DNA from: Dillenia suffruticosa
Lineage: Eukaryota; Streptophyta; Magnoliopsida; Dilleniales; Dilleniaceae
DNA: 64,000 nt
Reading direction: 5' to 3'
Assembly: GCA_033439265.1 (NCBI GenBank)
Contig: JAVTVX010000010.1
Coordinates: 27,517,056-27,581,055 of the forward strand
Below the pieces are notes generated by a model. It worked only from the letters and a program-made list of their open reading frames with translations. It was not told the DNA's origin and ran no database searches. Shown here piece after piece: positions 12,167-62,085 of this stretch (positions within the stretch are counted from its first letter, which is position 1; each line of letters opens with the position of its first letter). The translations under genes were made by a program, and so were the position numbers.

Positions 12167-12479
12167 CTAGGAGGTGTACATCGCGTATTGCGCGGTGTAG
12201 AGTTTTGATTTTGATTACAAAATAAAGAGAGTTGCCCAACGTGATTTTGCTGACCCACAACGTGATTTTGCATTTTGGAGAGCCAGAAGGTGATCTACGT
12301 TTGGCAGAACCACATGTGATATATTTGAATATGTATATTTAGATATTTGAGATTGGATTGAAATATTAAATTGAAACAGAATGTGATAATATTAAATAAT
12401 AAACCAAAACTAAATTATTATTTAACTATAGAGTTTTTAAATTAGAGTTTTAATTTTTAAAGAATCTTTATCTATCTAA

Positions 12480-13390
12480 AACTTTTACTTTAATAGTTTT
12501 AATTTTTGTCTGTGTCTAACTAAAAGTTTTAAAAATTGGAGTTTCAAATAACATGTTAATCGTAGAATAAAATATAAAAATATTAAAAAATAAACCAAAA
12601 CTAAAACCTATAAATATGAATATGAAATTTAAAATTTTATAAGAATAAAAGTATTTAAATATTTAATTTAAATATATAGATATTTATTTAAAATTAAATA
12701 AATTATATATTAAAAAAATCATATCCGAAAAAAAATTATCTGTGTAATGTTATGTTTAAACGACATAATTGTTTTTTAGTGTTTGTATATTCCTTGTTTT
12801 TTTTTTATTTTTTGGGTCTTTTTTTTCTATATAGAGGGAGACGTGACAAAAGGTAGTTTGTAGTGTACGTGGTGTGCGTGCTTTATATTAAAAATTATAT
12901 ATTTAATCTGTTAATTTTTATTCTTATACAGTTTCAAATGATAAAAATATTTATAAGTCTATTTAAATAAAAATATTAATAATTTTGTTTTGGTTCATCA
13001 TTTAATATTTTCACATTTCATGTTATAATTTCATATTTTATTTAAATAAATATCAAATATCCAAATAAATTATTTTTAATATTATAAAAAATTGAATATT
13101 GGAATAATAAGGTGGTACGTAGAACCACAAGGTTTTGGTACGCAGAACGACATGGTTATGCTATTATTCCCCGTCAAAAAGCAAAACCTTTTTAATCTTC
13201 CAAAATATTATTATTATTTTTAAAATACCCGAAAACATATTTTTTATTTTGTTTATGGTTGTGATGGTGTAAATTTTTGAGAAATCACATCTAAATGATT
13301 TAAAAAAGTTTAAATTCGATTTGTTTCTATAAAATAAATATAGTTTTTCTTTTTTATAAATATTAAATCTTTTCAAAAAAAAGTGAAAGA
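12480..13390 (+). repeat. AT-rich segment, copy 1 of a direct duplication
   Basis: Matches 13,850-14,710 in the same order at an offset of about 1.36-1.4 kb. The GC-richer landmarks are GACATAATTG near 12,760, CTATATAGAGGGAG..GTGACAAAAGG near 12,827-12,855 and TGGTGTAAATTTTTGAGAAATC near 13,265. No coding capacity. Confidence 0.75.
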
Positions 13391-13849
13391 TTATTAAAAA
13401 CCATAATATGGTAGATATTCTTATAATTATAATTTTTATAGATTGCATTTTTAGGTTAGCTAATATTTAAATATTTATCTAATATTAAACATTCTAAATT
13501 TAAATTAAAAAGACATGGACATAACATGTATAACGTTAATATTGGTGTGAAATAAAAAATACATAAATATTAATTTGAAATCATAATATTTAATAATTTA
13601 ATTCTAAAAAATAAATAAATATTAATATTTAATTTAAGGTTTGTAAAATATAAAAATACAAAAAATAATTTAGTTATTTAAAGATTTCATATAATAAATC
13701 AAATATTCTTTTGGTAGACATTACATATGAATTCGTGTCAATCAATTTATATATAAGTTATCTAATTTTATAAATTTTACCTATAGTTAACTATGAAGTT
13801 TTTAAATTATAGTTTTGATCTTTTAAAGAATTATTGTCTATATAAAATT

Positions 13850-14710
13850 TTTACTCTAATAGTTTTAATTTTTGTCTAACTAAAAGTTTTTAAAATTGAA
13901 ATTTCAAATAAAATGTTAATCGTAATATAAAATATAAAAATATTAATAAATAAAACAAAACTAAAACTTATAAATATAAATATGCAATTTAAAATTTTAT
14001 AAGAATAAAAAATTTAAATATTTAATTTAAATATACAGATATTTATTTAAAATTAAATAAATTAAATATTAAATAAATTATATCTGAAAAAAAATTATCT
14101 ATATAATGTTATGCAATGTTATGTTTAAACGACATAATTGTTTTTGGGTGATTATATATTCATTTTTTTTTATTTTTCGGGTCTTTCTTTCTATATAGAG
14201 GGAGGCGTGACAAAAGGTAACTTATAGTGTGCATGGTGTACATGCTCTGTATTAAAAATTATATATTTAATTTGTTAATTTTTATTCTTATAAATTTTAA
14301 ATGATAAAAATATTTATACGTTTATTTAAATAAAAATATTAATAATGTTGGTTTTGTTCATCATTTAATATTTTAATATTTCATATTATAATTTTATATT
14401 TTATTTAAATAAATATCAAATATCTAAATAAATTATTTTTAATATTAAAAAAATTGAATATTTGAATAACAATGTGGTACACAGAACGACATTGTTCAGC
14501 TATGTAGAGCCACATGATTCTGCTATACAGAGTCTCATGGTTCTGCTATGCAGAACGACATGGTTCTGCTATACAGAACTTCATGATTCTGTTATTTTTT
14601 AATCTCTCAAAATATTATTATTATTTTTAAAACACCCAAAAATATTTTTCTTTATTTTGTTTAGAGTTGTGATAGTGTAAATTTTTTAGAAACCACATTT
14701 ATATGATTTC
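13850..14710 (+). repeat. AT-rich segment, copy 2 of a direct duplication
   Basis: Second copy of 12,480-13,390. It carries the same landmarks (CTATATAGAGGGAG near 14,191, GACAAAAGG near 14,210, AGTGTAAATTTTTTAGAAACC near 14,670). CAGAAC/GTTCTG motifs have been added at 14,475-14,595 where copy 1 has only two short GCAGAACGAC/GTAGAACC motifs near 13,115-13,150. Confidence 0.75.
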
Positions 14711-15420
14711 AAATATAGAACCACCAAACTTCAAATCACAAGGAATGAGATATATCATTTATTTCAAATATTTTTTTATATTTTTGGCTAATTATATATT
14801 TTTTTAATAAAAATATTAGTAGTTCTGTACTATGCAAAATCACAAAATAGTTCTGTATTATGCAGAACCACCAAACTTTGAACCACATGGAATGAGCAAA
14901 AGCAAAATGTAAAAATATTAAATAATAAAGCAAGGTATACTATTCAATTCGTTAAAATAGTTTCAATAGTAAAATATCTAAGTACTAATATTTAGAAATT
15001 TTGAAATCTTAAATTTCAAAATATTATATTTTAGTATTATAAAATTATAATTTTATTCGTATTATAATACTATAGTATTTTTGCTATATGCAAAAATATT
15101 TTGTATATAATAAAAGAATCTATATAATATCTTTTCTTATCTTTATTATAATCGGTTTTGTTTTAAAAATATCTTAAAATATTTTTCATTTAATATTTTC
15201 ATAATTATAACTTTTGCATTAATATAATATTATAGTAAACTTATTATACGTCATCAATTTCAAATATTTTTTATATTAAGCGTAATGATTTATTTTTAAT
15301 AAAAATATCGATAGTTCTGCTTTATGTAGAACCATAAAATAATTCCGCACTTTATAGAATTACATTATATCTATGCCATGCAAAATAACAAAGTTCTGCG
15401 CTATGCAGAACTACCAAGCA

Positions 15421-15459
15421 GTGCTGCACTATGCAGAACAGTTCTGCATAGTGCAGAAC
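15421..15459. repeat. 39-bp near-perfect palindrome
   Basis: Two arms of 19 bases (15421-15439 and 15441-15459) are complementary at all but one position around a single A. The inner arms are GCACTATGCAGAAC and GTTCTGCATAGTGC. It is the best-preserved instance of the GTTCTG..CAGAAC family in this block and could extrude a cruciform or form a stable RNA hairpin. Confidence 0.85.
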
Positions 15460-15949
15460 TATCAATGCGGAACCACATAAAATGACTACAACTATAATGT
15501 TAAAAGTAATCTCAGACACGAAATATTTAAATATTAATATCTTCATATTTAAAATTTTGACAGAATTTGAAATTACAGTTCTGTATTTTGGTAGTTCTGC
15601 ATTAGATCCACATGTAATCCTATACCTTGGCAAGCTCTATAAATTGGTAGTTCTGTACAAGCATAAGTTTCTGGGTTGGAGGAAAAGGCTATCATTTTTA
15701 AGAGAACATTGAAAATAGAATCCATCATAGAGAGTATAGGTGTTCAAGATAAAATCATTATAGCAATGTTAAAATTGTCCATCTCTCCACACCTTAACGA
15801 AACTATAGGAAAATCCAACCAAACAAGGCAAAGGTATGAGAAAAAATTTGGCAAAGAATCAAGTACAGAAATAGTAACAGTTGCAGATATTAATCATCAT
15901 TCTCAAGAAAAACTCATCAAGTTATGAAAAAATTTACAAAAAACAACAA

Positions 15950-17010
15950 CTCAACATAGGAGTGTGGACTAAATTTCTATTCTTTTTCTAAAAAAGGGAT
16001 GCAGACATATATAACAAAAGCAAAAGCCAGAATCAATGTGACAACTAAATCTCTCAGGTAAAACACAAAGAAAATATCTATCTATTGTGAGGTCAATATA
16101 GCATCACAGAGAGAAACTTACTTCTAAGAGTTACACGTTTATTGGAATGGATACTGTATACATCTTTTTCCAAATATCCATAATATATTCTCTTGGGACA
16201 CCTCCATAATTTAGAAGAGCAATCAGATGCCGGGACAGAATTTGTTAGATATTATGGAAGCTATAATTTCTTCTAAATTAATTTAAATATTAAAATATTT
16301 TTTAGTATTAAAAATAATTTCAAACGTGAAATATTTAAATATTAATATTTAGATATTTAAAATCTGAATATAAATTTAAATTGTAGTATAAAATGTAAAA
16401 ATATTAAACAAACTGATAAATATTTTTATGTAATCTAAAACTGTATAAGAATAAAAAGATTTAGATATTTATTTTTAATATCTGGATATTTATTTAATAT
16501 TAAATATATTATATTAAAATAAGAAAAGTATTTGTTTAATTTTATATTTGTATATATTTAAATATAAGTTCTGTTACGTAGGAAAACTTCAAAATTCTGC
16601 TATGTAGCAGAACTACATAGGTCTGTTAAATAGCAGAACAATGAAGTTTTGCTATAGTTCTGTTACATAGCAGAACTATGAAATTCCGCTATAGTTCTAC
16701 TACTTAACAGAACTATATAGTTCTGCGAAATAGTAGAACTATAATGTTCTGTTAAGTAGTAGAATTTCATAGTTCTATGTGTTCGTCAATAATTTTTTTT
16801 TTTTTTGGTAAAATTTTGTAAAACTTTTGAATGACAATCCACTGGGCTCATACAGTAAGAAATTTTTAAATTTTTTGGGATTTTAATTTTGCTTTTATTT
16901 TTCAGCTTAAGTTTGAGTATCAATGAAGATAAATTTTTAATCTTATGAAATTTAAATTGGTTTTTTAAATTTTCTTAAATGTCATTTCTAAAAATCTTTT
17001 TTTTTTCTGT
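15950..17010 (+). repeat. Segmental duplication, copy A (with a short CAGAAC array)
   Basis: Begins AACATAGGAGTGTGGACT and matches 18,887 onward, including AAAATATCTATCTATTGTGAGG and CTTACTTCTAAGAGTT. The shared order continues through AT-rich DNA, a CAGAAC array at 16,565-16,785 (about 220 bp) and a closing block with GGCTCATACAGTAAGAA near 16,845. No gene content. Confidence 0.8.
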
Positions 17011-18886
17011 TCTTACCTCACTCCATATTAATTTTTTCTTTTCGATATATTTGAATGATATCATTGAATTATTTTTTATTAATATCAATAAAATTTGAAA
17101 TTAAGGATTTTAAATAGAAAATAATAACATAATAATAAATTGATTAAAATAATTAAATAATTAAAATAAAATAATATTAAATTAGACATCAAAAAAGAAA
17201 TTAAAGAATTAAAAAAAAGAAACAAATCCAGCGATCAAGAAAAAAGAAAAAGAAAAGTAAAGATTTGACCCAAAATTGTCATTGTTTAGGATATATATGT
17301 GTATAACAAATTAATTATAAAACTTATAAAATCAAGTTTCTCAGGCAAAATGATTTTTTACTTTTTTGTTTTAGTTAAAATATGTCTCCAAAAATAGGAA
17401 TTGATCTTTGTAATATTAAAAACATTAATATGAAAATTTTTTAATATTAAAATTGTAACTTGCTAGCGGCGGTAGATACATATAACAAATTTTTTAATAT
17501 TTTAATATCATATATTTAATATTAAATAAATATTTAAATATTTATTATTTCTATAAAATTTTAAATTAAATAATAATATTTATAATTTTACTTAAATTAA
17601 ATTATTCAATAATAGAGTTATAGTTTATTATCTAATATTTTAATATTTTATATTACAATTTAATATTTTTTTTTAAATATAAAATATCTAAAAATTAATA
17701 TTTAAATAATTGATATTTAAATTATTATTTAATATTATATAAATATTTAAAAATATTACCCTTCATCTATTTGAACCTTTTGCCTATCACGTTGTGGTTC
17801 TGCTAAACGCAAAATCTCATTGTCGTTCTGTAAAGTGCAGAACGACCTTGTCATTATGTAACTATAGGACTACACTTTTTTATTTGTTTAAAATAATGGC
17901 ATTATTGTAATATTGATAGTTTTTCAATTTTGTACAATATTAGTTTTTTTATTTTTTTTCTACTTTCAGTAGTTCTGTGGTTTCGCAGAACTACTACCCA
18001 TTTTTTTATTTTGTTAGTAATTTTTTATAATGGGTATATAATATTGTGTAAGATACCCATATTTTTAAATCTCTTCTAAGAAAAGAAAGGGATCTATTAA
18101 GGATAGTGAGCGCACATATTTTCATTGTTCTGCTTAAAGTATTATGTGTAACTGTGTAAATTTGGGCATGTATAGTGCTGATTTTACAATGTGTGTTTTT
18201 CTTTTCTTCTTTATACATAAAAAAAAATATATTTTGCCTTTAGAATTATCTATAACTCCTTCAGATTGCTTCTGTTCCAAGCCTGTAAGGATTAATTAGG
18301 TGCCCATGTTTTCATATGTCTATAGGAGCTCGAAAAACTATTGGCAGATCAACAAAAATAGATAAATCTTATTAAATATTTCATACCCACCTAAGAGATA
18401 AAGAATATGATTCAGGAATGACAATAAGGAATAAAATTAAATATGGAAAGATGTACATGGCAAACGTTTTATTTTATTTAATGTTTATTTTTAAACTGAA
18501 ACGACATTGTGGAACGAACTACATAGGTTGGTATTGATTTCAGAAAGCAAGCCCAATTTTAGCTGCACTCAGTTTTTTTTTTATTTTTATTTTTTGCTAT
18601 GCAGATGTTAGTCACATACTACCATACATATATGTACAACTTTTCAGTTGGGTATGTTGGTACTAATTGGTGGACTGTTGTAAAATTCCAGAGATGTTAA
18701 CATAGGTTATAAGTATTTATGAGATGAAAATATTAATTGGGAAGAAATTATAATATAATAAACCTCCGGTGTTATTGCCACATCACATGTTATTATATCT
18801 TGCTCTTTGTTATAAAGGGTCATGTATATCGGAACAAGCAATTTAAATGCACATCATGTTTGCCTTTCTGCTTGCTAAGAACCAAT
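17011..18886. other. AT-rich spacer between the two segmental copies
   Basis: Very AT-rich with isolated GC-richer islets carrying CGTTGTGGTTCTGC and GTGCAGAACGACC (17,790-17,850) and GTTTCGCAGAACTAC near 17,980. No coding frame stands out. Confidence 0.5.
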
Positions 18887-21185
18887 AACATAGGAGTGTG
18901 GACTCAATTTCTATTCTTTTTAGAAAAAGGGATGCAGGCATACATAACAAAAGCAAAAGTCATAGTCAATGTGGTAAAACACAAAGAAAATATCTATCTA
19001 TTGTGAGGTCAATATAGCATCATAGAGAGAAACTTACTTCTAAGAGTTGCACGTTTATTGGAGTAGATACTGTACGCATCTTCCAAAACATTGTTTGAAT
19101 TACTGCTTGATATCTTCTAGTCTAGATAAACTATAAAAGTGTAGCAGAGTTATGAATCATAGAATTTAAAACTATATTGGTTCATCATTAGAAATATGAA
19201 AGTCTAATAGAAATATGAATTATGAAAGTCCAGCAGAACTATGAATTATGGAATGCAAAACTATATAGTCCAACATAGTCCAGTAAAAGTATGAAAATTT
19301 AGTAGAACTGTGAATAATGAACGTCGAGCAAAACTACATATAAATCATTTAAAAAAATTTAAATTGTATTTTTTTTTCTGGAAAACAAATATAAATTTGC
19401 TTTTTTTTTAAACAAAATCTTTTAGAATTGTGATAATGAATAAAATATTATGGAATCTATAATCTTTTCTAAATTCATTTAAATATTAAAATACTTTTTA
19501 ATATTAAAAATAATTTCAAATGTGAAATATTTAAATATTAATATTTAGAAATTTAAAATTTGAATATAAATTTAAATTGCAATATAAAATGTAAAATTAT
19601 TAAACAATAAATTAAAACAAGCTGATAAATATTTTTATGTAATTTAAAGCTACATAAGAATAAAAATATTTAGATATTTAGTTTTAATACTTGAATATTT
19701 ATTTAACATTAAATATATTATATAAAAATAAGAAAAATATTTGTGTAATTTTATATTTAAATATGTTCAAAAATATAAGTTCGGTTACGTAAAAAAAGTT
19801 CATAATTTTGCGATATAGTAGAGCTATGTAGTTCTGCTACATAACAGAACCATGTAGTTCCGCTACATAGCAGAACCATGTAGTTCCGCTACATAGCAGA
19901 ACCATGTAGTTCCGCTACTTCACTACATAACAGAACCATGTAGTTCCGCTACTACATAGCAGAACCATGTAGTTCCGCTACTACATAGCAGAACCATGTA
20001 GTTCCGCTACTACATAGCAGAACCATGTAATTCCGTTATTTAGCAGAACCATATAGTTTCGCTACTACATAGCAGAACCATGTAGTTCCGCTACTACATA
20101 ACAGAACCATGTAGTTCCGCTACTACATAGCAGAACCATGTAGTTCCGCTACTTCGCTACATAGCAGAACCATGTAGTTCCGCTATATAGCAGAACCATG
20201 TAGTTCCACTACTACATAGCAGAACCATGTACTTCCGCTATATAGCAGAACCATGTAGTTCCGCTACATAGCAGAAGCATGTAGTTCCGCTAATACATGG
20301 CAGAACCATGTAGTTCCGCTACATGGCAGAACCATGTAGTTCCGCTACATGGCAGAACCATGTAGTTCCGCTACATGACAGAACCATGTAGTTCCGCTAC
20401 TACATAGCAGAACCATATAGTTCCGCTACATGGCAGAACCATGTAGTTCCGCTACATGACAGAACCATGTAGTTCTGCTATTACATAGCAGAACCATATA
20501 GTTCCGTTACTACATAACAGAACCATGTAGTTCCGCTACATAGCAGAACCATGTAGTTCCGCTACTACATAGCAGAATCATGTAATTCCGCTACTACATA
20601 GCAGAACTATGTAGTTCCGTTACATAGTCGAACCATGTAGTTCCGCTATATTGCAGAACCATGTAGTTCCGCTATATAGCAGAACCATGTAGTTTCACCG
20701 CTACATAGTCGAACCACGTAGTTCCGCTACATTGTCGAACCATGTAGTTCCGCTATATAACAGAACCATGTAATTCCGCTACTACATAGCAGAATCATGT
20801 AGTTCCGCTACATAGCAGAACCATGTAGTTCCGCTACATAGCAGAATCATATAGTTCTTCTACTACATAGCAGAACCATGTAGTTCCGCTACATAGCAGA
20901 ACCATGTAGTTCCGCTACATAGCAGAACCATGTAGTTCCGCTACATAGCAGAATTTCATAGCTCTCTGCATTATTTGATAAATTTTTTTTAGGGGCTAAA
21001 TTTTGTGAAGATTTAGGATGACAACCCAGTCGGCTCATATAATAAGAATTTTTTTTAATTTTTTGTGATTTTAATTTTGCATTTATTTTTTATTTTTCAA
21101 TTTAAGTTTGTATATGAATAGAAATAAGTTTTTAATCTTATGAAATTTTAATTTATTTTTAAAATTTTCTCAAAGATCATTTTTA
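18887..21185 (+). repeat. Segmental duplication, copy B (with the expanded CAGAAC array)
   Basis: Matches 15,950-17,010 in order: the ACATAGGAGTGTGGACT start, the TATCTATTGTGAGGTC block, AT-rich middle, array, then GGCTCATATAATAAGAA near 21,033. It differs by an insert of roughly 350 bp at about 19,090-19,440 and by an array about five times longer. Confidence 0.8.
19801..20953. repeat. Tandem array of 26/29-bp self-complementary monomers
   Basis: About 40 units of consensus CCATGTAGTTCCGCTACATA followed by GCAGAA (26 bp). A common 29-bp variant has an extra ACT before ACATAG. The core GTTCCGCTACATAGCAGAAC pairs with itself at 16 of 20 positions, the rest being C-A or, on the other strand, G-T wobbles, so every monomer can fold. 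Substitutions are scattered between monomers (TATATAG, ACATGGC, ACATAGTCG), suggesting local amplification. Monomer length is not a multiple of three and no frame stays open. Confidence 0.93.
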
Positions 21186-23235
21186 AAAAATATGAAAGTT
21201 TGTCAAAAAAAAAATATTTCCTTTGTTTTAAACATCATATATTTCAAATGTTTTTTATATTTTTAATATAATTATAAAATTTTTTATTTTAAAAATGAAA
21301 AGAAAGATTTTCAAATATTTTTTAACTTAATATTTTTATAATTATAATTTTTATAAATTGTAATTCTACCATACACATTTTTTAAATATTTAAATATTCA
21401 TTTAACATTAAATATATTAAATTAAAATGAAAAACACATCATTATAATATTAATATCTTTGTAAAATTAAAAAAATATAAACATTAATTTGCAATTATAA
21501 TATTTAATAATTTAAGTTGAAAAAATATAAGAATTTTTTTGTTGAAAAAATACAATATTTTTTTAATGCAAAAAGTGATTGCATCTGGGTTCGAACATGA
21601 GACGCAATTTGATTGTTCTGCACTATGCACACAGAGCAATGAAGTTTTGCTCATGCAGAATGAACTTTTGCGTTGCAGAACTTAGTTCTGTATGACTGCA
21701 GAGCCGTAGAACTTTGTAGTTCTATAGTGCACTATGCATAGCTTAATTGTGCAGTGCACTATGTCCATTGTTTTTCCTTTTTCATTCTCATTTGTTTAAA
21801 TTCGATCTAAATATCCTAAATTAAAATAAAAAAATATCTGTATAATATTAATATATGTGTAAAATCTAAAATATAAAAAAAATGAATGTTCTGAGGGGAT
21901 AAATTATAAAAAATATCTAAAATATTTATAATATCTTAGTTGATGAATTATTTTTTTTAGATGGGTTACATTATAATATTTTGAATTCTGCATTGCACAA
22001 CATGGTTCTTTTAGCAGAATTATTCTGAATTACGTTTTTTTTAGTAAAACTATTTCTTTAGCAGAACAATGCAAAACCATGTTGTTCTACACCAGGCAGA
22101 ACCACATGGTTCTGCGTGGTGCAGAATCATACCGTTTTGTATTGTGCAGAACCACATGGTTCTTTTAGCAAAAGTACTTTTGAAAAAATTTTTTTAGCAG
22201 AACTATTTTCTTTTTTTTTAATGACATTACATAACTACTTTTTTTTTTGTTGCAGAATTACATTTTTTTTAACGTACTTAATTACAGAACTACTTTTTTT
22301 TTTGTAGATAATTTTTTTAACGGTATCACAAAACCCCTTTTTTTCGTATCAGTTCTACTTTTTTTTTTTAATATATCTAACCACAAAACCACAGAACTAC
22401 AATTTTTTAAACATACCTAACTACAGAACTATATAGAACTATTATTTTTTAATAAAACTATTTCTTTAAAAACATAACCGACAGCATATCCAACAACAGA
22501 ATTACAAAAATATTTTTTTTAACATACCAAACTATATAACTATTCTTTTTTAACAGAACAACTTTTTTTTTAAAGGCGGTACAAAACTCCTTTTTTTGAA
22601 CATACGTATCTACAAAACCTATTTTTTCTTGCAGAACTACTTTTGAACTATTTTTTTTAGTAGAACTATTTTTTTAATGGGATTACAGAACAATTTTTTT
22701 TTTTGTAGCAGAAGTCTTTTTTTTTTCGAACATACTTAACTACAGAACTATTTTTTTTAATGGCATAACATAAATATTTTTTTAACAGAACTATTTCAAT
22801 TTTTTTTTAACATACCCAACCACAAAACTTTTTTTTTTTAATATACCTAATGGAAGAACTATTTTTTTTTAGCAAAACAATCTTTTTTTAGCATAACAAT
22901 ATAGTTCTGCACGGTGCAGAACAATATCGTTTTGTCTTTTAGTAAAACTATTTTGAACTTTTTTTTAGCAGAATAATTTTTTTTAGTAGCATTACAAACT
23001 ACTTTTTTTTGTTGTAGAATTACCCTTATTTTTAAACATACCAAACTACAGAACTATTTTATTTTTTAACAGCATTACAGAACTACTTTTTTTTCATATC
23101 AAACCTATTTTTTTTTTCAACATATCTAACTACAAAACTACAAAACTACTCTTTTTTTTGAACATACAGAACTACAGAACCACAGAACTACATTTTTTAA
23201 GAGAACTATTTTTTTTTGAAAATATAGCCGACAAT
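21186..23235. repeat. T-tract / CAGAAC interspersed degenerate repeats
   Basis: From about 21,590 the DNA alternates CAGAAC or ACAGAACTA words with T-runs of 7-10 and phrases such as ACATACCTAACTACAGAACT. Short open frames here arise from the repeats and do not look like genes. A cluster of pairs (GTTCTGCACTATGCAC, AGTTCTATAGTGCACTATGC) sits at 21,615-21,765. Confidence 0.7.
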
Positions 23236-25029
23236 ATATCTAACTACAGAACTATAGAAGCATTTTTTTTAACGTACCAAACTATATAACTATTCTTTTT
23301 TAACAGAACCACATTTTTTTAATGGCATTACAAAACACTTTTCTTGAACATACCTAACTACAAAACTTATTTTTTCTTGCAGAACTACTTTTGAACAAAT
23401 TTTTTTGTAGAACAATTTTTTTAATGGCATTACAGAACTACATTTTTTTGTAACAGAACTACTTTTTGTTTTTAACATTCCTAACAAAAAATCTTTTTTT
23501 AGCAAAACTACTTTTTTTAGCAGAACCATGTCATTCTGTGTGGTGCAGAACCATGTCATTCTGCACGGAGTAGAACCATGTCATTCTGCACGGAGCAGAA
23601 CCATGTCGTTCTATGCTGGGCAGAACCAAATCCATCAATAAAAAATTCCAGACTTTAAACGCTATTATTAAAAAAAAATGTACTTCTGCAACTCCTTGTA
23701 GTTGTTCTGCAAAATCAATAGTTTTGAAGTATCAATTGCAAATCCACTAATATATTATAACACACAAAGATCCATGACATATGTAGAAACCAAACGATAA
23801 CGGTGGCCTGTATAGAAAACAATATAAAGAAAAACTATACAAAAAACAACCAAACAAGTTTTTAACAAAGCAGCCAAACAAACTATGGAGTTCTGTAGAC
23901 CCAAGACTCACGATTGCAGAACAACCGAGCGAAGCTATTGCAGAACTGAAAGTGCTATTGCAGAACTACCCTAAACCCAGAACTACAGAGTAAAGTTATT
24001 ATAGAAATGAGTTTTTACATAAACTATTGCAGAATCACTAAAGTGCTATTATAGAAAAAATCACCGGCAGAACTACAGAACTGGGCTATTGCAGAACCAA
24101 CAAAGTGTAATTGCAGAAGAAAAGACAAAGACAAACCATCACAACAAAGAAGAATAACTTCCATAATCAGTACTTGAAGCTAAACGTCTCCATTCCCCCC
24201 ACCCAGAAAGGCAAACCTTCAAAAGGAAACATAAAAATAAACCATTATAACAGAGAAGAGAAGAATAATTTTCATAACGCATCCCAAAACTGGGAAAATA
24301 AATACAAACCTTGAACACGGAGGGGATATATATTCGGCACACTCAGAAACACAGCAAGAGAAAACCCAGTGACCATCGTCATCAACACCAAAAAGCGAAT
24401 ATAAAAAAGAAACGGAAAAAGTCCCAAGCCGAACGTCTCCATTCCTCCTACCTAGAGAGACAAACCTTTAAAAGGAAAGATAAAGACAGACCATCACAAT
24501 AGAGAAAAGAAGAATAACTTTCAAAATGCATCCAAAAATAGGAAAAATAAACACAAACTTTGAACACAGAGGGTAAATATATTCGGCACAGTCAGAAACA
24601 CAACAAGAGAAAACCTCAGTGGCTATCTTCGTCAGCGCCAAACAGCGGATATAAAAAAGAAGCCGAACTTGAAACCGAACGTCTCCATCCGCCCCATTGA
24701 GAGAGAGAGCGAGAAATAGATAAAGAGAGCACCGTCATACTTTTATGCAGAGAAGAAGAAGAGAACATATAACAAAGGAAGATACAAAAAACATAGAGGG
24801 ATGGCCTCATACACTTTTTTTTCCCCTCAAAAGTACAGAAGTCTAATCGCAATGAGTACCAAAAGAATGACCTTACATACTTTTTTTCCCTAACCACTCT
24901 GTGCACGTCTTCCGTGAAATCAACAACAAAATCTATTTCATTAATGTTTTTGACAAGAGAGAAAGAAAGAGAAAGAAAGAGAGAAACCACAAGGAAAAGA
25001 CCAAAAAAAGACAGAAAAAAAAACCAAAA
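23236..25029 (+). repeat. 1.79-kb unit, copy 1 of a direct tandem duplication
   Basis: Nearly identical in order to 25,030-26,822, with an offset of 1,789-1,794 bp measured at several landmarks (AACGTACCAAACTATATAAC at 23,271; AAGAAAAGACAAAGACAAAC at 24,117; AGAGAGCGAGAAA near 24,704). It starts in the T-tract/CAGAAC zone and continues through a GC-richer CAGAAC zone into three ~250-bp subrepeats and a purine-rich tail. Confidence 0.9.
24111..24860 (+). repeat. Three ~250-bp subrepeats within copy 1
   Basis: The landmark AACGTCTCCATTCC or AACGTCTCCATCC recurs at about 24,183, 24,433 and 24,679. It is accompanied each time by AGAAGAATAACTTTC, a GCATCC-AAAA block, ATATTCGGCACA, AACAAGAGAAAACC and GGATATAAAAAAGAA. 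The same triplet occurs in copy 2 near 25,978, 26,227 and 26,476. Confidence 0.8.
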
Positions 25030-26822
25030 AAATTACAGAACTACAGAAACATTTTTTTTAACGTACCAAACTATATAACTATTCGTTTTTAACAGAACCA
25101 CTTTTTTTTAATGGCATTGCAAAAATACTTTTCTTGAACATATCTAACTACAGAACTTATTTTTTCTTACAAAACTACTTTTGAACAATTTTTTTTGTAG
25201 AATAATTTTTTTAATAGCATTAAAAAACTACATTTTTTTTGTAGCAGAACTACTTTTTGTTTTTAACATTCCTAACTAAAAATCTTTTTTTTTTTAGCAA
25301 AACTACTTTTTTTTAGCAGAACCATGTCATTCTGTGTGGCACAGAACCATGTCATTTTGCGTGGAGCAGAACCATGTCATTTTGCAGGGAGCAGAACCAT
25401 GTCGTTCTATGCTGGGCAGAACCAAATCCATCAATAAAAAATTTCAGACTTTAAACGCTATTATTAAAAAAAAATGTACTTCTGCAACTCCTTATAGTTG
25501 TTCTACAAAATCAATAGTTTTGAAGTATCAATTGTAAATCCACTTATATTTTATAACACACAAAGATCCATGACATATGTAGAAACCAAACGATAACGGT
25601 GGCCTGTATAGAAAACAATATAAAGAAAAACTATACAAAGAACAACCAAACAAGTTTTAACAAAGCAACCAAACAAACTATGGAGTTCTGTAGACCCAAG
25701 GCTCACGATTGCAGAACAACCGAGCGAAGCTATTGCAGAACTGAAAGTGCTATTGCAGAACTACCCTAAACCCATAACTACAGAGTAAAGTTATTATAGA
25801 AATGAGTTTTTACAGAACTATTGCAGAATCACTAAAGTGCTATTACAGAAAGAACCACCGGCAGAATTACAGAATTGGGCTTTTGCAGAACCAACAAAGG
25901 GTAATTGCAGAAGAAAAGACAAAGACAAACCATCACAACAAAGAAGAATAACTTCCATAATCAGTACTTGAAGCTAAACGTCTCCATTCCCCCCACCCAG
26001 AAGGGCAAACCTTTAAAAGGAAACACAAAAACAAACCATTATAACAGAGAAGAGAAGAATAACTTTCATAACGCATCCCAAAACTGGGAAAATAAACACA
26101 AACCTTGAACACGGAGGGGAAATATATTCGGCACACTCGGAAACACAGCAAGAGAAAACCCAGTGACCATTGTCATCAACACCAAAAAGCGGATATAAAA
26201 AAGAAACGGAAAAAGTCCCAAGCCAAACATCTCCATTCCTCTTACTTAGAGAGACAAACCTTTAAAAGGAAAGATAAAGACAAACCATCACAATAGAGAA
26301 GAGAAGAATAACTTTCAAAATGCATCCCAAAATAAGAAAAATAAACACAAACTTTGAACACAGAGGGTAAATATATTCGGCACAGTCAGAAACACAACAA
26401 GAGAAAACCTCAGTGGCTATCTTCATCAGCGCCAAACAGCGGATATAAAAAAGAAGCCGAATCTGAAACCGAACGTCTCCATCCGCCCCATTGAGAGAGA
26501 GAGCGAGAAACAGATAAAGATAACACCGTTATACTTTTATGCAGAGAAGAAGAAGAGAAAAGATAACAAAGGAAGATACAAAAAACATAGAGGGATGGCT
26601 TCATACACTTTTTTCCCCTCAAAAGTACATAAGTGTAATCGCAATGAGTACCAAAAGAATGACCTTACATACTTTTTTTCCCTAACCACTCTGTGCACGT
26701 CTTCCGTGAAATCAACAATCTACTTCATTAATGTTTCTGACAAGAGAGAAAGAAAGAGAAAGAAAGAGAGAAACCACAAGGAAAAGACCAAAAAAAGATA
26801 GGAAAAAAAACCAAAAAAGAAA
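25030..26822 (+). repeat. 1.79-kb unit, copy 2 of a direct tandem duplication
   Basis: Second copy, with scattered substitutions and small indels against 23,236-25,029. It ends in the GAGAAACCACAAGGAAAAGA / poly-A stretch where copy 1 also ends. Frames at 25,905-26,296 mirror those at 24,111-24,502; they differ by substitutions that do not look selected and are not called as genes. Confidence 0.9.
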
Positions 26823-26945
26823 AAAAGAAAAACAGGCCACATCAGCTCCATCTCACCAACGACCAATCACCCTGCGTCAATTGGAGGACGACGAAATCCA
26901 GGTGCCAGGGGGTCTTTCTCACTTATATCTATATTGTTAATAATA

Positions 26946-30209: not shown

Positions 30210-32781
30210 ATGTCAAAGGCAGCTGTAGCGCTAAGTCCGGTTTTCGAGGAGACTGTAAGTATTGCAGGTTGTCTCTCTGACCGGCATCTTCCATGGTCAA
30301 GGGATTCAATTCTGATTTACCTGACTGTTGCAAACTCTGTGATTCCAATGCGTGTTTTGAAGTCGGATTCCATTGCTTCAGTTAAGCTGAGGATTCAGAA
30401 CTCCAAAGGGTTTTTTGTGAAAAAGCAAAAACTGGTGTTTGAAGGTAGAGAGTTGGCACGCAGCAATTCTCTTGTTAGGGACTATGGGGTCACTGATGGG
30501 AATGTGCTGCATTTGGTAGTTCGCTTATCAGATCTTCAGGTCATAACTGTTAGGACTGTGTGTGGCAAGGTGTTTGAGTTCCATGTTGAGCGGAGTAGAA
30601 ATGTGGGTTATGTCAAGCAGCAAATTGCTAAGAGAGGGAAAGGTTTTGTTGACCTCAAGGATGAAGAATTAATTTGTGATGGTGAGGAGCTTGAAGATCA
30701 GAGGCTTATACATGATATTGCTAAGAGGGGTGATGCTGTTATTCACTTGCGAGTTCGTAAATCTGCAAAAGTTAGGGCTAAGCATATATTGAATGATTTA
30801 GAACTTTCTATTGAGGCATCTAACTTGACTTACGATGGAACTGAGGAACTTAGGATGACATGCGGGGAGCCGTTGCAGAGAGATTTTTGTTTGGATCCAC
30901 TGATTGGTAACCCAAAGGTTGAATTGCCATCAGTAGTTAAGAAGCTTATTGACTCTACATTTGCTGGGTTGGAGATGGGAAACCAACCAGTAATCTCCGC
31001 AGAAGGATCTGGCGGTGCATACTTCATGCAAGATTCATCCTGTCACAGTTACATTTCTGTTTTCAAGCCGATGGATGAGGAGCCCATGGCTCAGAATAAC
31101 CCTCGAGGGCTGCCTTTGTCCACTGATGGTGAAGGGTTAAAGAAGGGGACACGTGTTGGACAAGGGGCATTCAGGGAAGTAGCAGCATACCTTTTGGATC
31201 ATCCTAGATCTGGACCTCGTTCAATAAAGGGGGAGGAGGAGGGCTTTGCTGGTGTTCCTCCAACAGTTATGGTTAGTTGTGCACACAGGGGATTTTTCAA
31301 TCCAGATGGTTACTTGGATGCATCAAAGAATATGAAGATTGGCTCCTTGCAAATGTTTATGAAGAATTCTGGAAGTTGTGAGGACATGGGTCCTCGTGCC
31401 TTCCCAGTTGAGGAGGTCCACAAGATTTCTGTGTTGGATATCCGTTTAGCTAATGCAGATAGGCATGCGGGTAACATTTTAGTCAGCAAAGAAGGTGAAG
31501 GGGGTCGGATAGTTCTTATTCCAATTGATCATGGGTACTGCTTGCCTGAGAATGTAAGTATCTCACTCTTCTCTCTATTTTGTACATACACACGTTGCAT
31601 TGTCTTATGGTGAGAGCATGCATTTTTGAACCCTTTTTACTGCCTATGTTACTTGTCTAAATAAGCGTATTTGAGTGCACATAACAGAGTGCCTTGCAAT
31701 TTGAAGTAAAACTGCATATTGTCTTAGAGATGGGCTAATTTCTGATTAATTTGTATAAAGTGGTATCATATTGTCATGGCAATGTTTTCTCTAGTTGAAA
31801 ATATATATTGAGACCATTCTTGATATTCTGAATGCAACGATGTATGTATTATGATTAATTACTGGTGTTAATCGCAGTACTATCTGTATGGTTGAACTCA
31901 ATGATGAGTATATGAGAATGAGGTTGAAGGTTCTACCTAATTTTGCAGGTTTGGTTTTGTCATTTAAAAATAGATAAAAATGTGTTTGTGTGTTGTGTCT
32001 AGATAAACTCCTTTATGTTCATTTATTTTATTTTCATTCATTTTATAAGGTTTTGTTCTAGATTGAAAAAGGATACTTGTTCTATTTGAATCATCAAGAC
32101 CTTCCAAGTTCTGGTTAATGTCTATGAAATGAGTCAAGGAGAGCTACTTGATCTTCCCATGAACCGCAAACTTACTGGTGCTTTGCTTCCATATTGTTGG
32201 CGAAGCAAGCAGTTTTTGCAGCACAATTTTTAGCTTTGATTCGGGAGTTGTCTTGCCCTTTTTTTTTTTGAGCCAAGTCCAAACATCACTTGTGTGTTCA
32301 TTTTGTAACATAATCTGGGCACTCTAGAATTTATTTCAGTCCTCTTAACTTGTATCACCCTAGTTGTCGCTCACTGTTGTCTCAAATTCAGTTTGAAGAT
32401 TGCACATTTGATTGGCTCTACTGGCCACAAGCTCGCCAGCCTTTTTCATCTGACACTCTCGACTACATAATGTCACTCGATGCCGAACAAGACATTGAAA
32501 TTCTGAAGTTTCATGGGTGGAACTTACCAATTGAGTGTGCTCAAACTCTTCGGATTTCCACCATGCTGCTCAAGAAAGGTGCAAAGAGAGGGCTTACTCC
32601 ATTTTCCATCGGAAGCATGATGTGCAGAGAAACTTTGAAAAAGGAATCTGTTATTGAGCAAGTGGTCCAAGAGGCTCAAGATTCTGTGCTTCCTGGAACA
32701 AGTGAGGCTGCATTCCTCGAAACTGTCTCACAGATAATGGATCGCTGCCTTGATGAGCTCTACCCTAAGGCCTCTGAATGA
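30210..32781 (+). CDS. PI4KG3: Phosphatidylinositol 4-kinase gamma with two N-terminal ubiquitin-like domains
   Basis: Two coding exons, 30210-31553 and 32392-32781, joined across a GT/AG intron, give 577 aa, the usual length of plant PI4K gamma. Ubiquitin-like domain 1 spans about residues 34-105 (SVIPMRVLKSDSIASVKLRI) and domain 2 about 110-184 (VERSRNVGYVKQQIA). The PI3/4-kinase core follows: glycine-rich loop GSGGAYFMQ near 266, KGTRVGQGAFREVAAY, catalytic loop LANADRHAGNIL near 415-425 and metal-binding DHG near 439 in IPIDHGYCLP. The C-terminal exon carries FEDCTFDWLYWPQAR, LLKKGAKRGLTPF and GSIMCRETLKKES. The family was named for PI4-kinase similarity, but characterised plant members act mainly as protein kinases in the cytosol/nucleus. 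Wording is closest to the gamma-3/gamma-4 group, and the neighbourhood favours gamma-3. The retained reading frame past 31553 would end after about 19 extra residues. No damage is seen. Confidence 0.93.
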
Positions 32782-35282: not shown

Positions 35283-38200
35283 TCATTCAGATAGTCCTGC
35301 TAGAAATGCAACTCCAGTTGAAGGCAACCACGATGACCCATAAATAAATTGTCCCACTGTAAATTTGCTGGCTTCCTCGGCCAACGTTATGACCCGGTAC
35401 CCGGGCCAAGTGACCCGTTGGCCCACTGCCGCACCAGGCCCATAATTCATATACTCCCCGTAGTACAATGTATCGAGTGCAAAATTTCCATTCCACTCTA
35501 GCCAACCTCTAGGGTGAATGTGGTCACCCATGTAGGATAACATGTATACTGTCCTAGAATACAGCTTCCACGGACGCCCAAGATACGTTGGAAAGCTTTC
35601 CTTGGATGCCTCCAGGTCCGAGGTAGCAAGGATCCGACAAGCGTGGATCGAAATGCCGGTGTTCTGATTCGGGTCCTTGCGGCTTTGGGCAGTGATTGTG
35701 TTCTTTTGCATAGCAAGAGGCTTTCTTGCATAAAGGCTACAGTTTTGGAAGACCACAGCTGCGTTGCCAAATATGTAGTCAACCGTGCCATAAATGTCAC
35801 ATTCTCTGTAAAATTGACGTTGAGAGTGAACGTATAAGGTGTCTTGATATCCCATGATGTTGCACCTGTAGACCACGCCGTGGTCTGCGCCAACGCGCAA
35901 AGCCACGGCTTGGTGCTTACTTGGCCCGGCGGTGTTCTCGAACGTCATGTCCCGGGCTATAAAGCCCATCCCCGTTGCAGCTGCATTGGGTTTATTAAAA
36001 AAAAAAAAAGAATTTTACAATCCGAGAGATGGATTAAACAAATTTAGAAAGAATAAGAAAATCTAAAAACAGATATTTTATTGCAAAATTTATGGGACAA
36101 AGTTATATATTAATGGTTGGAAATGTTCATGTAACAAACAGCAAATTTTTAAAATTTACATCAAATGGGTATTTATTTTTTAATTTTCTTTTTCTATAAT
36201 TAACATATTGTTCTTCTCTTACAGACATGGATGGACCCACGATTTCCTCTAGCATTTCAAGATTCCTTCTCTGTAAAATATAAATTAACATTCACGAACA
36301 TGAACCATTTGAGCAATTTCATTTTTTTATTCTGCATGTGAATATCCCTATTGAATTATTAAAATACTAATCCAAAATCAATAATATAAATTTTTTTTTG
36401 AAAACAAATAGCATTATTGTTGATGATCAAAGTCACAGGAACCAATGAGTCTATCAAGTTGAGTTTCCCTATTAGACTCGTGACCCACCCCCAGTCATGC
36501 TATTGTCACACTTCCATTCTTCCCCCGCCCAAGCTTGTGGACAAACACTTATTCCTCATTACTTTAATAATGCCTCCAAAAAGTCGGTTTCCAAAATTGA
36601 AAATCCTAAAAGCCAAATGGAATCAATATTTCTCCTAGGGGTAATTTAGTCAAATCATTTGTTTTAGCCAATAGATGACATAAATGCTTTACCAATTGCT
36701 AGTAGATTTTGTGTTTTGACTTTTATCTACATTTGTATTAACGAGATGTCCCTCACCCACACGAGGGGGTATTTTAGTCCAATCGCGTGACTAATCTAAA
36801 GGTTCAGAATTTTAGAATTGTCATGACGTGAAGAATCATGTGATCAGTCACTCGTTGTTAGGCTAAAAAGTTGTCGAATTTTGGCATGAGACAATTTATT
36901 TCCGTTTTTTTTTTTTTTTTTTTATTTTTGAAAAAAAAAAGGTTGGGTTAATTTTTTCTTTTACCGAAGGACGCGGTGTGGAAAGTCGTCATTTTGTCGA
37001 ACACGCTTTTGCTCCCCGAAATGACTGTTTTGCCCTCACCGTCACCTATAAACATCAGATTTGTTTTCTTCCTCCCCACCTTCAAATTATCTTCTTCGTA
37101 CCTTAAAAAATTAAAGTAAAAAAAATTTAAAAAATCCCTTTATAATACTTACGGCAAAGAAACCAACGAACCTAATATATCATCATGCATTAATTGACAA
37201 GATTAAGGAAAAAAAAAAAGCCACCGACACAAATCCACTTAAACCTTGAAAAGTCAAATCTAACAAATCACTCGAAAGCAAAATCGATTCGTAAATGTAT
37301 AATAATTTCGAAAAAAAAAAATGTTAACCATAGAAATCAGAAAGTTACCTTCCGGCCTTAACGTAAATAATAGTCCTTCCACTGCTGTGCTCGGGCGCTT
37401 TCTTAATGGCCTCCGAAATAGTCTTCACCGTACCATTCCCATCCTGGGACACAATAATGTCGGCCTGAATTGAATTTACCGGCATATCCAGTAATTCTCT
37501 CTCACTCCTCGTCATCCACGTCGGATATCCATGTTCATGATGCAATTCTACGACATCGGAGTCGTCTTTTGTGTTCATTAATCTTCTCTTGTTCTGTATC
37601 GGAATCCCCGAAAAGTCCTCGTCCCCACTCGCGGCCGCAAATATGGCCAAACAATTACTCACCAGCTCCGACAGGTCTCGGAGCCGGTCCAACATTTCAT
37701 TCTTCACCGCACCGCTCACTTCCCCCAATCCGTCCGTGCACGTGTCCTGATTTGTGAGGGCGGCGCTCAGCCAAGTCATCACGTCCTGGGTTGACCCGTG
37801 CTCAGATGTTGATGGGGAAATTGAGTCGAGAGATCTGCTGAGAGCGTCGACGGAATCTTCCAGAAGCTCCATGCAATCCTCGTATGCTGATCGGACATGT
37901 GCGTCCATGTTGAGGTTTGAGATCTCCGAGGTTAGGTAGAGTGCTTTTCCGACGTGTTGGAGAGTCATGTTGACGGAAATGTGGACGAGGTCGCGCTCTC
38001 CGGCGCTCATTGAACCTGGGAAATCTAGAAGGTAGTTGATGCAGAGCGAAGGGTACAAGGTTTTGCCGCAGGTCCGGGATATGGCTTGGGTGGGTTTTCT
38101 GTTAATGAGTGGCTCGGAGTTGTCGGAACCAGCTCTGGTGCGGTTCCGAACCACTAGTGTTGCCGAGACCGCAGCTGCGATGATTAGGATGCCGGAGAGG

Positions 38201-38334
38201 AGGAGGAGAGAAATTACGAGCTTCTTGCGAGGTCGTTTTGGTGAAGGGGATAAAGGGACGGCATCGTTTTGTTGGGTTTCGGGCAGGGGGGGAGCTTCTC
38301 GAGGCTCGGACTTCCCGAGCCTACCGTATCCCAT
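35283..38334 (-). CDS. PMEPCRF: Type-I pectin methylesterase with PMEI pro-domain, membrane-anchored
   Basis: Three exons on minus (38334-37349, 37101-36965, 35980-35283) have GT/AG borders and phases that fit exactly, giving 606 aa. A short basic cytosolic tail precedes a signal-anchor segment at residues 39-62 (LVISLLLLSGILIIAAAVSA). The PMEI-type pro-region is about 82-245. Processing motifs RRLM (250-253) and RELLD (279-283) follow, then the pectinesterase domain from about 290. Catalytic features are present: AGRYEE, QAVALR (Gln398), GYQDTLY (Asp421), GTVDYIFGNA (Asp442) and LGRPW (Arg510). It de-esterifies wall homogalacturonan; the pro-domain is normally cleaved by a subtilase in the Golgi before export. 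The start MGYGRLG and overall wording match the Arabidopsis PMEPCRF group (At5g53370/At3g49220). No defects are seen. Confidence 0.95.
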
Positions 38335-56447: not shown

Positions 56448-57948
56448 TTATCTTGACTGATGAAGTTGGGACTGACCCAAAAAATTTGCTCCCCACCATT
56501 GATGAATTCCGTGTGCGGTTTTAAAGTCTGGTGAAGGACTCAAGTTAATAGTCAGATACGCCGATGGAAGGAGATGCCAAGTATTTTGTGAGGCTAGCCT
56601 CTCAATCCCTCCGATTCCCATCTCCTTCATCTTTTTTTGATGTTCAAAGTACCCAATATACTCCGAGCATATATGGTCACTTGGATTGACAAACAGAAAG
56701 GGGATCCAAGCGGATAAACTAACAAGGGACTGGTCCTCCTGATGCCCGTACTGACCTTTGACAGCAAGGGCAATTGCAGCTTTTATTGTACTTTTAGCAA
56801 TGCGCAGGTTATTCTTCACCTTTTGATCCCTGATCCTTTCAATTGGGATCGCAACAAAAGGTGGATTAAATAGATAAGTTTCCAGCATAGACCCCATTTT
56901 TGCCATGTGCCTTCCCGCAAGTAATGCAATGGCTGATCCAAGAGAATGTCCTGCTAACCATACATTGGCAGCACCCGCTACATCAACCATATCATGGACA
57001 GCCTGCAAGGCAAGCCGATAGCGGGAGCTGTTCTCAAGTTTGTTGAAGATCAACTTGATATCCAATTTGAGATCCCTTGACATGGTTTCCCTCTTATTGA
57101 TTGTGCCACGAAAAGCCAAGACAAATCCTGGGGCATTTTGGCCAAAACAGTTGTACATGGATGCTGTAGCTGGAGGTTTAAATTTGAAAATGGCACCAAA
57201 GATGGAGAAATCAACATCATCCGCAAGTGTACCGACTAGTTGGAAATGGAAGGAGGACCACCAAGGTGGACTGAGAGCTTCGTGCCCTTGTCGATTCTGT
57301 TGGTGGTCCTTTTCTAAAACATATACCCCCTGCACTAGGCTTGCTGCAATAGATTTTCGATGAGATGTATCTTTCCTGTGATAGAGAACACCATTTTCGA
57401 GTTATGCATTTGCTGAAATAAGAACTTCATCACTAAAATAGCAGTTGGATAGAAGCAACTATTTGATAAGTACAGAAAGTGGGTTAAGAAGCAACTAAAC
57501 AAACGCACAAAGATGATCTTTATAAACATTAAGTTCATTTTTTTTTACCCCATTCTGGCACTTTATTGGTAACATATTTATCTAAATTTTCCCTTTTTTA
57601 GTCATTATTCATCAAAGTACCCCAGTGACCAGTAATATTGTGACATAATCCAGATTCCAAAACCCCTGTCAATACAAAAACTTGTCAAGGGAGTACCTGC
57701 ACAGGTAAGAGCTCCTGTAATCCATAACAACAAACAGTTTACAGTTTTTTGATTTCATTAAATCTTGACCTACAATAATGTATAATCCCCTTAACTATTT
57801 TCATGGTGCCCTAAAACACATCATGTTCAGGATGTTGAGATTGCTTCTTTCAGAATAGAGTGAGGGAAACAGATAAGATTCTATACCAGTCGACAGCATT
57901 AAGATGAACTGGTCCTGATAGGCTGAAGATTTCGTTCTTGGAGGCCAT
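56448..57948 (-). CDS. Class-3 lipase-like alpha/beta hydrolase (At4g10955 type)
   Basis: Two exons on minus, 57948-57887 and 57375-56448, joined in phase, give 329 aa beginning MASKNEIFSLSGPVHLNAVD. That N-terminus matches the conserved start of the plant family often labelled GDSL esterase/lipase At4g10955, which actually has a class-3 lipase fold. Features are FVLAFRGT (oxyanion side), nucleophile elbow GHSLG (Ser165), NPPFVAIPIERI, NPSDHICSEYIGYFEH (probable catalytic Asp254) and AHGIHQWW near the end (probable catalytic His309 or 312). Substrate is unknown. The frame is open throughout and the length is normal. TATAAATA on minus at 58,183-58,190 is a plausible core promoter. Confidence 0.92.
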
Positions 57949-61404: not shown

Positions 61405-62085
61405 TCAAGCAGAAACTTGAGGGTGAGATGATGATGAAGAAGCCACGTCAGCTTTGCCGCTAGAAGTGCTCTCTTGTTCTTGCTGTTGCTTCTTCCCTGC
61501 TCTTCTAACTCTGACAAGTGCAAAACCAAGAGTACTCTCTGTCATCTCAGTCCTGAAGGCCCACAACTGCACTATGTCTCCTTTCTTAATATGGTTGTTC
61601 ATCACAACTTCATCCCTCTTAGTCTTCAACATATTGGAACTGCTTACTTTCCCATTCTCCTTGGGCATAACCCACGTCTTCATATTCAACTTTATTGACT
61701 CCAAGCAAGGCTGTATTAAGACCACTGATATATCCTCAGAATTCAACTTTCTCTTCTCTTCTTCTGTCAAAAACTCTGTTCTCACTTGTCGAACAGGCAC
61801 CGAGAATCTGTTGCGACCAAGATTGACATCGGTGCTGAAAATTCGCTTCTGAATCACCAACACTATCTGGGTTCCTCTGTATTGCTCTGCAATTGCATTC
61901 CTGATTTCTGCTGGCAAATCTGGAGGTGCGTTCGACCCAACGTCGATTACTCCGCTTCGCTTCTTCTTCTGCTTGCTTGGGTTTACATCGGCCTCTGCTT
62001 CTTCCTCGTAGTCTTCATCTTCCTCTTATTGATTCTGGGCTTGTTCTGTGTGGCAATTGTTGGTGGCTTCTTTCCTGGCATCCAT
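61405..62085 (-). pseudogene. B3-domain (DUF313-type) transcription-factor-like gene with an in-frame stop near the start
   Basis: From ATG at 62,085 the frame reads MDARKEATNNCHTEQAQNQ, then TAA at 62,028-62,026. In the same frame it continues EEDEDYEEEAEADVNPSKQ, a Lys/Arg-rich stretch, PPDLPAEIRNAIAEQ and on to the stop at 61,405. The B3 part includes QIVLVIQKRIFSTDVN, NRFSVPVRQVRTEFLTEEEK and KGDIVQLWAFR, as in the small REM-like/DUF313 B3 family of putative DNA-binding nuclear proteins. Without the TAA the protein would be 226 aa, a normal length. No in-frame ATG precedes the B3 region after the stop. It is either a recent nonsense mutation, an assembly error, or translation begins in an unseen upstream exon. 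Confidence 0.75.

Follow-up and report, generated by a model that had tools for sequence, protein, structure and literature searches.

A palindrome-rich stretch of Dillenia suffruticosa DNA as a very probable non-autonomous member of a large Helitron family with RepHel-bearing relatives

We analysed a 64,000-nucleotide stretch of the Dillenia suffruticosa genome (C10:27517056-27581055 in a 596-Mb assembly of 37 contigs; this whole stretch is called the window below) and found that positions 12167-26940 very probably constitute a non-autonomous Helitron from a large family that also includes RepHel-bearing elements. The element lies on the minus strand and measures 14,774 bp (12167..26940), with its 5' end at 26940, next to the host base T at 26941, and its 3' end at 12167, next to the host base A at 12166. 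Its ends are common to sister copies with unrelated flanks. A Helitron of about 14.8 kb had been proposed at this place in an earlier, sequence-only reading, and the proposal was borne out by the recurrence of the ends, by their pairing in the genome and by the empty sites of sister copies.

The left boundary, read on the minus strand, consists of a hairpin, a spacer, CTAG and then T, with the junction at 12167/12166 (DNA fold z = -4.4), just as the sequence-only reading had described a Helitron 3' end. A CTRR end following a GC-rich hairpin is a hallmark of Helitrons. Among 20 copies fetched from 71 genome matches, the terminal CTAG (12167..12170, minus strand) is exact in 18, at the same point and with unrelated flanks; the other two read CCGG (L013) and CCAG (L019), the latter preceded by T. 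An A adjoins the 3' end on the host side, as at 12166, in 19 of the 20. The hairpin itself (12177..12199, minus strand) folds as DNA, with an imperfect stem in the window copy and a perfect 10-bp stem in the autonomous copy L061. The whole 3' terminal segment (12167..12238, minus strand) is common to non-autonomous sisters (81-90%) and to L061 (82%), and the terminal 109 bp are alike at 78-90% between L061 and the fetched copies. Near 12239-12244 the window copy lacks approximately 410 bp that all 20 fetched copies carry. In L011 (C8, near 16488291) the terminal hairpin segment is apparently part-duplicated in tandem.

At the right boundary, the sequence common to the sisters stops at 26940 (...ATATTGTTAA|T), and the TAATA that follows belongs to the flank. 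A Helitron-like 5' end had been expected here and indeed recurs in sister copies, but its position had to be corrected from 26945 to 26940, 5 bp further inside. The 5' terminal region (26560..26940, minus strand), which starts with TTAACAATATAG, is common across the family, as judged from the 40 of 352 candidates that were scored. Helentrons have no CTAG end and use a T-T target; a Helentron identity of the window element was ruled out by its CTAG end and A^T target.

Both ends recur throughout the genome, as the sequence-only reading required of a genuine element. A 51-base pattern of the 3' end (at most 3 mismatches) was found at 50 places and a 23-base pattern of the 5' end (at most 2 mismatches) at 295, while the reversed control of each pattern gave 0. 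When the ends were paired, 43 of 59 3' ends had a correctly ordered 5' partner on the right strand within 60 kb, compared with 0 on the wrong strand and 0 on the wrong side. The 59 3' ends comprise the 50 pattern matches and 9 added by hand (three moved 2-5 bases to the expected end); the 116 5' ends result from merging 100 listed of the 295 pattern matches with 23 from 40 scored similarity matches; and 56 of 149 matches to RepHel (PF14214) entered the pairing. The 23 pairs without a RepHel match among these 56 span 5.4-49.8 kb (median 15.2 kb). Another copy, L015 (C19:4925880-4935879), matches the window copy at 98% over its 3' end and the adjoining body for about 500 bp, and the next 7.5 kb match nothing in the window region; no RepHel was found in L015.

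The remaining 20 of the 43 pairs contain a RepHel match, in all 20 cases in the orientation of the element. Thus RepHel, the mark of an autonomous Helitron, occurs between these same ends in the family, not in the window copy. The RepHel-bearing pairs have a median span of 31.4 kb and range from 21.4 to 44.2 kb, with 19 of the 20 falling within 21.4-38.7 kb; the RepHel gene lies 10.9-12.7 kb from the 3' end in 19 pairs and 29.8 kb from it in one, and the leader from the 5' end to RepHel ranges from 10.5 to 26.9 kb. Wrong pairing or nesting may account for the two longest of all pairs (44.2 and 49.8 kb). L057 (C35) matches the Pfam families PIF1 (4.8e-69) and Helitron_like_N (1.2e-57), and L060 (C13) contains the Rep and helicase motifs HAH, KYLYKY and GGTGK. 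The RepHel reading frame is broken at the identical place in both, at CAGGTAATCC, a sequence resembling an intron donor. These two regions, the one pair compared, are 99.9% identical over 4,000 bp. The C13 copy ends in CTAG|T and starts with A|TC; three TC ends (L054, L056, L058) have different flanks and therefore represent separate insertions. In the 3' part of L057 (8229-9584, minus strand), a 451-amino-acid open frame runs opposite to the RepHel strand, with no Pfam match at E 0.01.

The insertion sites have the form expected of Helitrons, which insert between A and T without target-site duplication. All 12 joined insertions have A on the left and T on the right (the pair L023/L046 was left out), and the window copy has both bases. 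We searched 11 of the 12 joined flanks genome-wide (the query comprised neither L011 nor the initial 17 bases of L016), and for 6 of the 11 junctions there was a paralogous uninterrupted locus across the joint: L017 (three loci, 89%, 79% and 78%), L026 (80%), L025 (78%), L022 (75%), L016 (75%, its right side covering just 13 bases) and L009 (67%). Two of the L017 loci are exact through A^T, and A^T is also kept in the empty sites of L022 and L025, with substitutions and a one-base indel beside it, respectively. No target duplication was seen in the alignments of the six empty sites. The empty-site structure anticipated by the sequence-only reading is therefore present in sisters, which break as predicted, some with small indels at the joint. 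At the L018 joint, a paralogous match covers the left flank only and stops at the joint (C4:1249536).

Many host flanks beside the 5' end of L030-L058 are (TTA)n or TTAATTA, which suggests a target preference or the growth of short repeats at the 5' junction. In L051 (C24:10160901-10206807), two copies stand head to tail: the CTAG of one runs with no intervening base into the start of the other, a RepHel-bearing element. This CTAG|TTAAC junction is one of the two cases in which G precedes the 5' end, and 13.6 kb upstream there is another 5' end. Such a junction is expected of a circular intermediate in rolling-circle transposition, and insertion at the re-formed A^T of an existing 5' junction would produce it too.

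The interior of the window copy had been described as free of transposase and host genes, and nothing we found contradicts this. None of the five open reading frames of at least 150 amino acids in the window lies inside the element, and tblastn with a piece of RepHel found no RepHel there (best E inside the element 3.0). The best match in the window (E 1.1) is located outside the element and was rejected as a RepHel remnant. A Pfam scan of 10 of the 25 stop-to-stop frames of at least 75 amino acids gave two matches only, MatK_N (E 0.04) and FANCE (E 0.0009), both below the gathering score; no captured gene was recognised in these 10 frames, a coverage that makes a short fragment possible, and a gene-capture element is unsupported.

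Instead of genes, the interior holds repeats of one motif family. GCAGAAC/GTTCTGC occurs 80 times in the 14,774-bp element versus once in the other 49,226 bp of the window (first-order Markov expectation: mean 0.73, maximum 3 in 100 simulations), and duplicated blocks are 81.0-94.8% identical, in agreement with the tandem and segmental duplications around a single motif family noted before. The main palindromic minisatellite (19815..20953, minus strand; repeat analysis) has a 26/29-bp unit in about 41 copies, and its length differs between sisters: where the 26-bp array is complete in sister elements it has 14.7 to 151 units, against 41 in the window (this range excludes the arrays of L009, L010, L012, L013, L016 and L018, which run past the limit of the sequence fetched). 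In the 20 fetched copies, GCAGAAC/GTTCTGC and GTTCCGC together were found once in 20 x 1.49 kb of flank, as compared to 2-231 times per 8.5 kb inside. Genome-wide, the 26-bp unit has 863 sites with at most 1 mismatch (control 0). The 100 of them that were listed form 17 clusters, which we placed with 27 5' ends on five contigs; 16 lie 5.2-12.5 kb inward from a 5' end of the right orientation, none of the 17 lies near a wrongly oriented one, and the 17th is within copy L013, whose 3' end is known. Because all 17 listed clusters lie in the family, the satellite travels with the element in this sample. The sequence-only reading had pictured one mobile element amplifying its own minisatellites; array length does vary, but the satellites are a shared family property of changing length and were not made by the window copy alone.

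Autonomous members carry arrays as well. L057 has a palindromic array of 717 bp downstream of RepHel. In a genome search that scored 40 of 247 candidates, five copies of this array, spread over four contigs and including the query itself, proved 100% identical. Of 16 matches at 88% or more, 14 fall in RepHel-bearing pairs, an assignment made by eye, and 2 lie within about 6 kb of a RepHel match. A second array, 74-77% identical to the first, is found upstream of RepHel in several copies. Lastly, 3.2 kb of the C13 leader were read (L058, L059), and five motif copies are present in the 2.5 kb of L059; this leader also has repeats that resemble the 5' part of the window element.

Taken as a Helitron, the window copy would most likely be acted on in trans, through its shared ends, by RepHel from autonomous sisters. 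By analogy with rolling-circle chemistry, RepHel would nick the element and copy one strand, and the copy would enter an A^T site with no target duplication. As inherited family cargo, the palindromic minisatellites are carried along with the element, and array copy number and the order of neighbouring blocks would change by local duplication and loss.

Several observations weigh against assigning the element to a Helitron family. Transposition itself was not observed. The usual Helitron consensus begins with 5'-TC; the window copy begins with TT, as do 26 of the 29 5' ends read, the 3 TC ends all being in RepHel-bearing pairs. We did not treat 5'-TC as defining, because this RepHel family includes ends of both kinds, TC and TT. 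Of these 29 ends, 25 follow a host A, and the 4 without it follow G (2), T (1) or C (1). Furthermore, 16 of the 59 3' ends are unpaired, some with RepHel matches close by, perhaps because 100 of the 295 5' ends entered the pairing. Some empty sites are imperfect at the joint, namely the third L017 locus (T to G), L026 (three bases absent), L016 (G for A) and L009 (a 17-base gap and G for T). The empty site predicted for the window insertion was not found in our one-genome search, nor was one found for L010, L018, L024 or L028.

One rival explanation is that AT-rich intergenic DNA with a local satellite has edges that resemble Helitron ends by accident. Short end motifs are common in AT-rich DNA, and the earlier reading drew on sequence alone, but both ends recur with different flanks while reversed controls give 0, sister empty sites exist, and the ends pair in order and strand (43 right, 0 wrong); we regard a chance resemblance as practically negligible. 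We also consider it highly improbable that the element is a Helitron remnant broken up by nested elements, with the satellites being a separate repeat that landed inside. Large blocks do differ between sister copies, and L015 and the window copy are alike over only about 500 bp of body before 7.5 kb of unlike sequence, as would fit such nesting. However, the 26-bp unit occurs only with the family in 17 of 17 clusters (from the 100 listed of 863 sites), arrays are also present in RepHel-bearing elements, and 6 of the 20 copies (L009, L010, L012, L013, L016, L018) keep collinear stretches of 7.4 kb at 95-96%.

Within the Helitron interpretation, there is the further question of how the arrays lengthen. 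Slippage at single-strand hairpins in rolling-circle copying, and not unequal exchange after insertion, is a possible route, which we hold to be somewhat unlikely. The array units fold strongly as single strands (z -3.7 to -7.5 for three window array stretches), and copy number in the arrays varies between about 15 and 151, against a divergence of about 3% between bodies (in a comparison of 21 sequences over about 500 bp, the mean pairwise distance is 3.3% and the window body departs from the majority sequence by 0.8%). Monomer distance is 0.146 within arrays versus 0.154 between them, hence little local homogenisation is seen. Unequal exchange is nevertheless an equally good fit, and the 717-bp array, 100% identical in five autonomous copies, was unaltered by recent jumps. 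A jump therefore need not alter the array, which counts against change at every transposition. More doubtful still is the idea that the minisatellites serve a function in a giant Helitron of recent activity, with the long repeat-bearing leader of the autonomous element being selected and not merely tolerated; if this were true, single-strand hairpins would aid or regulate rolling-circle copying, or feed small-RNA control.

We compared the family with known systems. Autonomous Helitrons are given as 8-15 kb in A. thaliana and 10-15 kb in rice (PMC6591975). The Dillenia elements are like these canonical plant Helitrons in RepHel, in the 3' hairpin with CTAG and in A^T insertion without target duplication, but differ in the size of their RepHel pairs (21-39 kb in 19 of 20), in the palindromic arrays inside and in their mostly 5'-TT ends. 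The non-autonomous Brassica Helitrons found in BrTT8 (4.3 kb; PMC3439492) and in BnSP11-1 (3.6 kb; a relative measures 10.4 kb; PMC5030654) share the hairpin and CTAG end and have termini common to relatives, and A^T insertion is reported for BnSP11-1 (PMC5030654) as we find here; they are smaller, with 5'-TC, a distinction drawn from descriptions and not from sequence. Maize gene-capturing Helitrons reach a similar total size (up to 39 kb), but do so with captured gene fragments instead of repeats and leader (PMC6431247). The satellite-carrying Helentrons Cg_HINE of the Pacific oyster are likewise a rolling-circle family spreading tandem repeats (PMC7492417), although they are animal, non-autonomous and of the Helentron type, whereas ours are plant Helitrons with CTAG and A^T and have arrays also in autonomous members. 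AtREP21 of A. thaliana is, like the window copy, a non-autonomous Helitron with variable internal modules; it is stated to have no palindromic modules (PMC2955051), while palindromic units dominate here.

No description of this family was found in titles and abstracts of the literature searched, which did not include Repbase, and it may be catalogued elsewhere. Apparently new are the very large autonomous Helitrons, the arrays in autonomous members and the mostly 5'-TT ends. Here a family of plant Helitrons disperses its own palindromic satellite and remodels it, which ties transposons to satellite birth. In practical terms, EAHelitron is described as requiring 5'-TC (PMC6591975), and finders with this requirement would set a wrong 5' end for most of the copies observed in this family. 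Empirical evidence on plant Helitron movement is scarce (PMC10095026), and movement should be directly testable here because there are near-identical RepHel copies (one pair compared), defined ends and many non-autonomous relatives.

The remaining features of the window copy, all on the minus strand, begin on the left with a body segment (12245..12743) that is 91-99% identical to non-autonomous sisters in most of 27 matches starting near query base 79. A diverged tandem segmental duplication (12419-13305 / 13784-14713, 81.8%) is followed by two further duplicated blocks (15953-16166 / 18887-19082, 85.0%; 16249-16742 / 19445-19968, 81.0%), and the 5' part contains a 1.79-kb tandem duplication (23242-25031 / 25031-26818, 94.8%). 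Smaller palindromic arrays were identified by repeat analysis at 14481..14595 (period 23/46; also by fold), 16617..16776 (periods 37 and 26; fold z -7.5 for 16560-16700) and 22096..22163 (short, period 25), and as an inner (23519..23628) and an outer copy (25315..25424) of a period-25 array. The rest of the window contains pieces of plant genes (30210-31613, 35283-38334, 56448-57335 and 61405-61917), which represent a PI3/PI4 kinase with ubiquitin domains, a pectinesterase with PMEI, a class 3 lipase and an At2g31720-like B3 gene.

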